Shown one piece after another: positions 36,451-38,842 of a DNA stretch of 38,842 nucleotides. Source of the stretch: Acidobacteriota bacterium. Its GTDB lineage: Bacteria; Acidobacteriota; Vicinamibacteria; Vicinamibacterales; UBA8438. The stretch is taken from positions 63,245-102,086 of the forward strand of contig VXME01000077.1 in assembly GCA_009861545.1 (NCBI GenBank), given 5' to 3'. The notes under the pieces were generated by a model that made no database searches, had not been told where the DNA came from, and was given only the letters and a program-made list of their open reading frames with translations. The translations under genes and the position numbers were made by a program. The stretch's first letter is position 1, and the number at the start of each line of letters is the position of its first letter.

Positions 36451-36463
36451 CAACGCATTCTAG

Positions 36464-36609
36464 CCCGACAATCGTCGCCACCGGCTCCTCTTGCCGCCCA
36501 ACCGGGCCTGTCCAGGCGTCTGCACCGCTTCTGCGGCCCAGAAGCCTGGCCCGACAATCGTCGCCACCGGCTCCTCTTGCCGCCCAACCGGGCCTGCCCA
36601 GGCGTCTGC
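36464..36609 (-). repeat. Dispersed structured repeat, copy C: tandem pair, period 86 bp
   Basis: Bases 36464-36523 and 36550-36609 match at 59 of 60 positions. Between them lies a hairpin at 36512-36549 with stems CCAGGC/GCCTGG, TCTG/CAGA and CCGC/GCGG and loop TTCT. A second hairpin at 36602-36620 sits at the equivalent place of the second unit. Read on the minus strand the order is hairpin then core ending CGACGATTGTCGGG, as in copies A and B. It ends 14 bases before the secreted unknown gene at 36450, in the same orientation. Confidence 0.85.
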
Positions 36610-36694
36610 GGCGCGGACGCGAGGCGCCGAAGTTACAGAGAATTCACGTGAAGATGCTTGGGGCCATGTAACTTTGGGTTAAGATGGTTAGTTG

Positions 36695-36739: not shown

Positions 36740-36931
36740 ATGCCGACACGACGACAGACGAACGGGGCGACTCTCGCCCGTAATGCCCACCCGCGGCTGC
36801 GGCTCTCCGCCGCGCCGCTTCGCCAGCACTCCCACGCGTCTCTTCGACGCGCGACCGACGCCGGACGGTCACTGGACCTGCGGACCGTCTACCGGCAGTT
36901 CGTGCGACGTCTCTGGTTCGCGGCCTCGTAG
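36740..36931 (+). CDS. Possible 63-residue basic small protein
   Basis: An ORF of 63 codons starting five bases after AGGAGG (36729-36734), the best such site in this part of the window. The product is Arg-rich without Lys (MPTRRQTNGATLARN, LRTVYRQFVRRLWFAAS). I recognise no family. Longer ORFs in other frames cross this stretch without start signals. It could be a small regulatory protein or a leader peptide for what follows; the strong initiation signal is its main support. Confidence 0.4.
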   Translation: MPTRRQTNGATLARNAHPRLRLSAAPLRQHSHASLRRATDAGRSLDLRTVYRQFVRRLWFAAS

Positions 36932-36960: not shown

Positions 36961-37020
36961 CCGCCGGAACCGGGCGACATCCGTCCTCGGATGTCATCCG
37001 CCCGGCGGTAGGGACCGCCG
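36961..37020 (+). repeat. Cluster of overlapping hairpins
   Basis: GACATCCG/CGGATGTC with loop TCCT is enclosed by CCGGGC/GCCCGG (36970-37005, small bulge). CCGCCGG (36961-36967) can pair alternatively with CCGGCGG (37002-37008). GGCGGT-AGGG-ACCGCC (37005-37020) is a further hairpin. These mutually exclusive pairings in a gene-less stretch suggest a structured RNA or DNA element. Confidence 0.5.
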
Positions 37021-37042
37021 CCCGTCGAATTTTTCAAATTCG
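37014..37042 (+). repeat. Left inverted repeat of the low-GC island
   Basis: ACCGCCGCCCGTCGAA (37014-37029) matches the reverse complement of 38761-38776 at 15 of 16 positions. A small palindrome CGAATTT-TTC-AAATTCG (37026-37042) adjoins it, as one does on the right side. Base composition falls visibly just inside. Confidence 0.55.
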
Positions 37043-37138
37043 CCTCGCCCGCGGCCGCGTGTTACCATGCAGGAAGTCGCATTGGGGAGCGTTCGCCCGG
37101 GTCAGCGTTTTCGTGGTACCCTAACGGAGGTGATGCCT

Positions 37139-37405
37139 ATGGAAACAACAACACGCACGGAAGCTCCTAAGTCGGCGTCGGCTAACCGATGGACTTTCAG
37201 CCTGGACTTGTCACGAAGACTCGATGTCACTTGTGAAACTGCCAGGGCGCTGCCCAATGCGACTAGCGACGGCCCCAAACCCAAGACAAAGGCCACCCGC
37301 CGAAATTCATCTCTCATCAGCGGTGAAGTACTCAATGACTTGTTTTGCCTTGAACGCGTTGGGCTTTGGAGGAGGTGGGCGATGGCGAAGATAAGTGGTG
37401 ATTAA
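37139..37405 (+). CDS. Hypothetical protein of the low-GC island
   Basis: An 88-residue ORF started at METTTRTEAPKS, seven bases after GGAGG in a perfect GGAGGTGAT (37127-37135). The ATG at 37133 is closer than ideal. The product is basic and soluble (LDLSRRLDVTCETARALPN, GPKPKTKATRRNS). No family was recognised. Codons use more A/T than the host genes. Near its end, GGAGGAGGTG precedes an in-frame ATG at 37382 that would encode only MAKISGD; this may instead serve the next ORF. Confidence 0.45.
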   Translation: METTTRTEAPKSASANRWTFSLDLSRRLDVTCETARALPNATSDGPKPKTKATRRNSSLISGEVLNDLFCLERVGLWRRWAMAKISGD

Positions 37406-37406
37406 T

Positions 37407-37577
37407 ATGAAGTTCAGGTCACTGGTAGTGGCGAAAAATGTTTCTCTGAGCCTCATACGTACATATCAGTATGAGACTAGACTGACCCATCGGGCTGCGA
37501 AGGAATTGGCCTTACACGTTCTTTGCCTGACGGGCAGCGAGCTTGCTCGAATGGTTGGAATCAAGATGAAGTTTTGA
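37407..37577 (+). CDS. Possible 56-residue ORF of the low-GC island
   Basis: Starts MKFRSLVVAKNVSLS two bases after the preceding stop, with GGTGAT (37397-37402) four bases upstream. Residues such as RAAKELALHVLCLTGSELAR could form helices. No family was recognised. Short length and weak initiation make it uncertain. Confidence 0.3.
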   Translation: MKFRSLVVAKNVSLSLIRTYQYETRLTHRAAKELALHVLCLTGSELARMVGIKMKF

Positions 37578-37603
37578 CGCCCTCCCCTCCCCCGTGGTAG
37601 GCT
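37574..37603 (+). promoter_or_regulatory. Predicted promoter of the membrane/GIY-YIG pair
   Basis: TTGACG (37574-37579) and, 18 bases later, TAGGCT (37598-37603) preceded by TGG, which forms an extended -10. Transcription would start near 37610, about 30 bases before the ATG at 37642. Confidence 0.45.
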
Positions 37604-37641
37604 TTCGTTCGCCAAGCATCGAGAAGGGAGAAGGGGGAGGA

Positions 37642-38262
37642 ATGAGTAGAACAAGAATTGCTGAGACGGTTGTCGCGATGTTGGTTACACAAGCTATTAT
37701 GGCGACGGTTAATCAAGTTACGCCTGTGCTTACGTTTGAAGTGTTCACTGGGGTAACTGTGGTGGTTGCTGTGCTGGTACTTGTGGCGACTATTATTCGT
37801 GAAGCGATTGCCAGTCGTGAGCGAACCTACGTGCACGGTGCCTTACCTTTTCGGGAATTACCCGCGGTCGATACCCCGCGAGCGTACGTGAAAGTCAATC
37901 TTTGGCTTTTTATGCCAACCCTAGATGGACTAACCGATATTGAAGTCGAGGACACAGTGAAAGGCCAGGTGGGAAAGTGGGGTATGGCTGGGGGTGTAGT
38001 ATGGAACATCACCAGACGGGAGCCAGGTATCGAGCTTACCATACATAGGATAAAATCAAGGGAAGAAGAAGGAGGGGAAGACCCGAAGCATAGAAGTCTA
38101 TTCTGTTATTTCGCTGCGGAGAATGCCGGCGAGGCGTTACTGTGTCGGAAGGGGGACGAGGTGGTTTTTGTTGGGCGGGTGAAGGCGGCAAAGGCAAGCT
38201 GGACGAGCCTCGGCAAGTGTGAGTTGGTGCTACACTCGCCGGCGGCGCCGGCTGAAGGTTAG
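37642..38262 (+). CDS. Two-TM protein with a possible OB-fold soluble domain
   Basis: A 206-residue protein started after GGGGGAGGA (37633-37641). Two hydrophobic segments (TVVAMLVTQAIMATV and FTGVTVVVAVLVLVATII) are followed by a soluble domain from about residue 60. The end, GDEVVFVGRVKAAKASWTSL then GKCELVLHS, has the strand pattern of tRNA_anti-like OB folds; that is a resemblance, not a firm call. A charged loop (KSREEEGGEDPKHRS) lies between. Lower-GC codon use than the host. It is 12 bp upstream of the GIY-YIG gene, so the two form an operon. Confidence 0.7.
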   Translation: MSRTRIAETVVAMLVTQAIMATVNQVTPVLTFEVFTGVTVVVAVLVLVATIIREAIASRERTYVHGALPFRELPAVDTPRAYVKVNLWLFMPTLDGLTDIEVEDTVKGQVGKWGMAGGVVWNITRREPGIELTIHRIKSREEEGGEDPKHRSLFCYFAAENAGEALLCRKGDEVVFVGRVKAAKASWTSLGKCELVLHSPAAPAEG

Positions 38263-38274
38263 GGAGCAAGCGAA

Positions 38275-38580
38275 ATGGCTAATGGTACCGTTGCGTGGGG
38301 TGGTTACGTTTTTCATGTTTGTGATTATGACACTGACTGGAAAGACGCTCCGGGTGTCTACATTTTTACCGGAGTGAATCAAAAGAACAATTGGATTCCT
38401 GTATACATTGGTGAAACAGGGTCGTTCAGTGACCGCATGGCGGGACATGAGAGATGGGAGCAGGCTCGACGCCTTGGGGCCACTCACGTCCATGCTCGGG
38501 TCGTGCAAGGGGATAGGCAGGTAAGGGTAGGGATTCAGGACGAATTGGTTCAGGCATATAGCCCTCCTCTGAATAGATAG
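38275..38580 (+). CDS. GIY-YIG nuclease family protein
   Basis: A 101-residue single-domain protein with GGGAG (38262-38266) eight bases before the ATG. GIY-YIG motifs: GVYIFTG (GIY), PVYIGETG (YIG), a catalytic-type Arg/His region SDRMAGHERWEQAR, and Glu in IQDELVQAYSPPLNR with the terminal NR typical of the family. The length is that of stand-alone GIY-YIG domains. These cut DNA in homing, repair, restriction and anti-phage settings. It is co-transcribed with the two-TM protein. Confidence 0.85.
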   Translation: MANGTVAWGGYVFHVCDYDTDWKDAPGVYIFTGVNQKNNWIPVYIGETGSFSDRMAGHERWEQARRLGATHVHARVVQGDRQVRVGIQDELVQAYSPPLNR

Positions 38581-38842
38581 AGGACGAACCGCCCGAAAAC
38601 CACACACCTACTCACCGACCTGGAAAGGTTGGGTCGTGCTACACTTGGAGTTGAGTGGAAGGTGGCGGGTAGACTTCTTTCCTACCTGAGTTTGCCCTTG
38701 TTGTTCGGGGTTCCACCGTTCACCCTCTTCCGCGCGCACGCATGAGCCGGAAATTCGAATTTCGGCGGGCGGCGGTTTCCGGTACGGCCCAGTAGTGTCC
38801 CAGGAATTACTCCAATAGATTCAATAGGTTACCGGGACCTCC
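38581..38842. other. Gene-less right edge
   Basis: No ORF with a start signal is seen. GGAAAGGTTGGGTCG near 38622 does not pair with an upstream partner. The right inverted repeat (38750-38776) is listed separately. Beyond it, AGTAGTGTCCCAGGAATTAC (38791-38810) and an AATAG-containing AT-rich tail run to the window end; this might be the edge of another mobile element, but no transposase is visible. Confidence 0.5.
38750..38776 (-). repeat. Right inverted repeat of the low-GC island
   Basis: The palindrome GAAATTCGAATTTC (38750-38763) is followed by the inverted partner of the left repeat (38761-38776, 15 of 16 matches to 37014-37029). The two ends are 1763 bp apart and face each other. Confidence 0.55.

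Follow-up and report, generated by a model that had tools for sequence, protein, structure and literature searches.

A putative mobile-insertion-cassette-like element with a 5-bp target duplication in an Acidobacteriota genome

Mobile insertion cassettes (MICs or MICEs) consist of coding genes between short inverted repeats, lack a transposase, and are presumed to be moved by a cognate transposase; an example given in the available excerpt of PMC5444012 is the qnrS2 cassette of plasmid pAC3, which has 22-bp repeats and carries a resistance gene. According to the part of PMC3129680 at hand, MICs are often missing from genome annotations. Tn3-derived TIMEs and composites, as far as the excerpt of PMC4133298 describes them, are another relevant group, in which inverted ends, a 5-bp target duplication, and the lack of a transposase occur together; TIMEs have 38-bp Tn3-type repeats and AT-rich targets.

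Here we describe an element located close to the end of the window, that is, the whole 38,842-nucleotide stretch analyzed, which forms the end of contig C77 (G000:C77:63245-102086). The element combines (i) terminal inverted repeats that agree at 16 of 19 positions, (ii) a target duplication and an empty site, and (iii) coding cargo without a transposase. In these respects it matches the mobile insertion cassettes described in the excerpts of PMC5444012, PMC6304161, and PMC3129680. It differs from the pAC3 qnrS2 cassette, as the excerpt of PMC5444012 presents it, in its 19-bp repeats and orphan cargo and in that no parent insertion sequence (IS) was found. In contrast to the TIMEs of the PMC4133298 excerpt, the identity between its ends fades after about 22 bp (25/38), and its target is GC rich. 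The comparison with the literature was made for kind and not for sequence, and it is not meant to imply that nothing has been published on the element or its end. Tn3-type ends start with GGGG and have TAAG at their inner edge. The ends found here lack these features: they start with GGGA and GAAA and contain no TAAG in their first 45 nucleotides. The element is best filed as a mobile-insertion-cassette-like element without a known parent, and we consider it very probable that it is a transposable element of this kind that was moved in trans.

Table 1. Positions of the element, its parts, and the adjoining features in the window
Feature	Position	Strand	Remarks
Hairpin after short upstream gene	36961..37008	+	Fold -35.1 kcal/mol, z -5.29
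Target duplication CGGTA, left copy	37006..37010	+	5 bp
Whole element	37011..38779	.	1769 bp, GC 0.536; from empty-site comparison
Left terminal inverted repeat	37011..37029	+	19 bp; 16/19 against the right repeat, 18/22 if extended
Left AT-rich palindrome	37026..37042	+	CGAATTT-TTC-AAATTCG; overlaps inner end of left repeat
Possible small ORF, 88 aa	37139..37405	+	No convincing relatives; one PHROGs match, E 0.049; may not be a gene
Possible small ORF, 56 aa from ATG	37407..37577	+	No relatives; may not be a gene
P0001, orphan gene, 206 aa	37642..38262	+	Hydrophobic N-terminal helical segment, then possibly a beta-rich part
P0002, GIY-YIG-domain protein, 101 aa	38275..38580	+	
Right AT-rich palindrome	38750..38763	+	GAAATTCGAATTTC
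Right terminal inverted repeat	38761..38779	-	19 bp
Target duplication CGGTA, right copy	38780..38784	+	5 bp
End of later, unrelated multi-copy IS	38790..38842	.	Site of contig break

An earlier sequence-only reading of the window had proposed a low-GC cassette with 16-base ends (37014-37029 and 38761-38776) that match at 15 positions and each adjoin an AT-rich palindrome. All of this was confirmed, except that the true ends lie 3 bp farther out on each side (Table 1). The left repeat reads GGGACCGCCGCCCGTCGAA and the right repeat, read from the right, GAAACCGCCGCCCGCCGAA. Directly outside both ends, and exactly in register with the inverted repeats, are the 5-bp direct repeats CGGTA, which supply the target duplication that the earlier reading had suggested looking for. 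The left flank ends in ...CCCGG-CGGTA, and the right flank starts with CGGTA-CGGCCACGTACGG when the IS described below is set aside. The empty site, likewise sought at its suggestion, exists unbroken in the same-genus genome G001, where 85 of 96 positions match the joined flanks with one CGGTA. A second same-genus genome, G003, matches the joined flanks at 47 of the first 56 positions and at 62 of all 96, with divergence growing downstream, and G013 and G019 have the left side and the hairpin in common with the element site and a different sequence beyond. All four relatives have CGGCA where both copies here are CGGTA, which fits the duplication of a single T-bearing target. Relatives in which the flanking synteny is preserved thus lack the cassette; conservation in all of them would have spoken against a mobile cassette.

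The last ~53 bases of the window are shared with the ends of five other contigs, indicating that a multi-copy IS breaks the assembly at the window end. With the neighborhood of G003 as the query, the continuation of the right flank was traced to the beginning of another contig of this genome, C119. This contig starts with the matching IS end in the opposite orientation, followed by GGTACGGCC, the same nine bases as the 9-bp IS target duplication at 38781-38789. Because these nine bases are found on both sides, an IS that inserted later and duplicated 9 bp appears to separate the right flank of the element from C119; the probable join of C77 and C119 is based on synteny and the IS duplication, not on reads. 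The two ends of the IS are CAGTAGTGTCCCAGG.. and ..CTTGGGACACTAGTG (window 38790-38842 and L072 1-49), and several contigs end where it breaks the assembly.

The base composition of the element sets it apart, as the earlier reading had claimed. Its GC content is 53.6%, compared to 69.2% in the window before the element, and the lowest value among 705 other segments of equal length is 0.617. GC3 also differs, being 0.48-0.52 in both cargo genes versus 0.87-0.92 in the three larger upstream genes measured. A scan of the region for consensus promoters found none, and Rfam and tRNA scans were empty.

The first of the two main genes, P0001, had no match in Pfam, NCBIfam, PADLOC, or PHROGs and no relative in IMG/VR, and a search of 162 genomes of the order retrieved nothing but P0001 itself. 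Three weak matches among 396 genomes of the phylum (E 0.0017-0.01) cover short stretches and were not taken as relatives. AlphaFold modeling without alignments gave models of poor quality (mean pLDDT, 48.0 and 48.9); for P0001, only a long N-terminal helix (residues 3-58), hydrophobic by sequence, is predicted confidently, and strands are predicted at low confidence for the remainder. An OB-fold was considered for the second half on the basis of strand patterns that we take to be similar, and it is not claimed.

The protein encoded by the second gene, P0002, resembles stand-alone GIY-YIG nuclease domains and the UvrC N-terminal domain (PDB 1ycz), along which its residues 24-100 align (E 0.0044), and the GVY and YIG motifs are present. 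It differs from them in its Pfam GIY-YIG score (14.4 bits, below the curated cutoff of 22.6) and in having Gln where the alignment with UvrC shows the usual Glu, which we take to be the catalytic residue of the GIY-YIG domain. This replacement bears on the activity of P0002 and not on its fold. Besides P0002 itself, relatives were found in five of the 162 genomes of the order (29-34% identity) and numbered two among the 396 genomes of the phylum; none were found in plasmids, phages, or IMG/VR. Matches of P0002 to PADLOC PDC-S14 (best E 3.5e-6) cover residues 25-60 or 18-63 only, which is the GIY-YIG motif region, and for this reason no defense system is claimed. The likeliest guess for the cargo is a nucleic-acid-directed role, e.g., defense against incoming DNA. 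A family of stand-alone GIY-YIG-like proteins of ~105 aa with the motif GATHVH was also observed (L051, L052, L053, L054, and L055); in three members scanned, Pfam gave one subthreshold GIY-YIG match.

In agreement with the sequence-only reading, no transposase or integrase was recognized in the element, either by Pfam in both main genes and ten further ORFs on both strands or by NCBIfam, PADLOC, and PHROGs in the main forward ORFs. The ends are not a common intergenic repeat, since with 0 mismatches they occur in their own genome only as the known pair. The search for other copies, also proposed earlier, thus recovered this pair and no second copy, whether at up to 1 mismatch in the same genome or at up to 3 mismatches in 22 bases in 28 genomes of the family. 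Six other single-mismatch matches in the own genome lack the palindrome and were rejected. Matches with up to 3 mismatches were present in 19 of the 28 family genomes, a count somewhat above, yet close to, that of a reversed-pattern control; again, only the known pair had 0 mismatches. When the palindrome was required, the own genome was the only match among 60 genomes of relatives. Single, unpaired end matches (four in a one-genome-per-species collection and two in IMG/VR) were taken as chance. A Tn3-family transposase was considered because of the 5-bp duplication; it was found in 2 of 40 genomes (G001 and G003), with 0 matches in the draft assembly G000, and the sequence beside the best G003 remnant is, by eye, unlike the element ends. 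The Tn3-family transposase genes in these same-genus genomes are fragmentary (L109-L113).

No cognate autonomous IS or transposon with the same ends was found in the own genome, the family genomes, the relatives, or the contig collections, and this lack of a partner would suit an autonomous transposon with an unrecognized transposase, in which the orphan, the GIY-YIG protein, or both cut the DNA. P0001 belongs to no known family, and mobile elements are among the known sources of the GIY-YIG fold, a fold of DNA nucleases (PMC1564403, in the part available). We nevertheless regard such autonomy as very unlikely, given that a protein of 101 aa, consisting of one domain in which Gln takes the place of the usual catalytic Glu, would make an improbable transposase, that the presence of just one copy does not suggest self-driven spread, and that, among the distant P0002 relatives, the two with neighbors listed showed no matching unit by eye. 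Its more specific form, an undescribed transposon type that would move by means of its own two proteins, the membrane-anchored orphan and the GIY-YIG protein, and not by a DDE transposase, is judged highly unlikely.

The structure of the site would be the same if the unit were ancestral and had been lost from the relatives by deletion between the CGGTA repeats. Such a history has a very low probability: precise loss would be needed in several relatives (G001, G003, and probably G013 and G019), the GC content and GC3 are foreign, and P0001 has no convincing relative among the 162 order genomes or the 396 phylum genomes.

By itself, the inverted repeat is unremarkable, being within chance for the window. 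It is weak evidence because the window is rich in comparable pairs: at spacings of 300-3000 bp, it has 26 raw inverted 16-mer pairs with at least 15/16 matches (overlapping registers counted separately), 2 of them inside the element and using its right end. As single strands, the ends fold no better than shuffled sequence (z 0.36, -0.19, and 0.37), so that they are sequence palindromes and not exceptional hairpins. The commonness of 15/16 pairs is what would favor a chance arrangement, in which an ordinary intergenic islet of low GC content happens to have inverted repeats. An exact 5-bp repeat directly outside, however, accompanies only 1 of the 238 other raw inverted pairs with at least 16/19 matches (overlapping registers counted separately, the element itself excluded). 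With the target duplication in register, and above all with the empty site, which largely refutes it, such an accident is scarcely credible. It is the duplication, the empty site, and the composition that make the case for a mobile element. An integron-like cassette of a site-specific recombinase is extremely improbable, too; it could draw on the palindromes near both ends and on small ORFs without a consensus promoter match, whereas the inverted ends and the 5-bp target duplication argue for a staggered-cut transposase and no integrase was recognized in the element.

The duplication and the empty site therefore support the non-autonomous mobile cassette of the earlier reading, the transposase supplied in trans being the part that we infer. 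For a cassette of this kind, a DD(E/D)-type transposase from another element would bind both ends, and the adjoining AT-rich palindromes may form part of its binding site. The unit would then be mobilized and joined to a 5-bp staggered cut just past the terminator-like hairpin. Its cargo, the orphan with an N-terminal hydrophobic segment and the GIY-YIG-domain protein, may derive from a lower-GC source. The hairpin is intact, with the element at its 3' foot, and it is conserved in G001, G003, G013, and G019. Because the insertion lies just past the hairpin, no gene was broken; as one insertion represents the target, a preference for hairpins is not deducible from it. The locus provides a clean case, documented by both the empty site and the target duplication, of a small cassette that lacks a transposase and carries genes into a chromosome, and the end sequence offers a handle for finding the moving enzyme and further cargo.

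Two features were observed upstream of the element. A 63-aa Arg-rich ORF (36740-36931) has a conserved leader and is followed by the strong hairpin, and similar DNA is present in G001, G003, G013, and G019. Farther upstream, a direct repeat (36460-36528 and 36546-36614; 86-bp spacing, 94%) is part of a dispersed repeat with many copies in the own genome and in relatives, e.g., G001, G002, G003, G006, G013, G018, G019, and G021.
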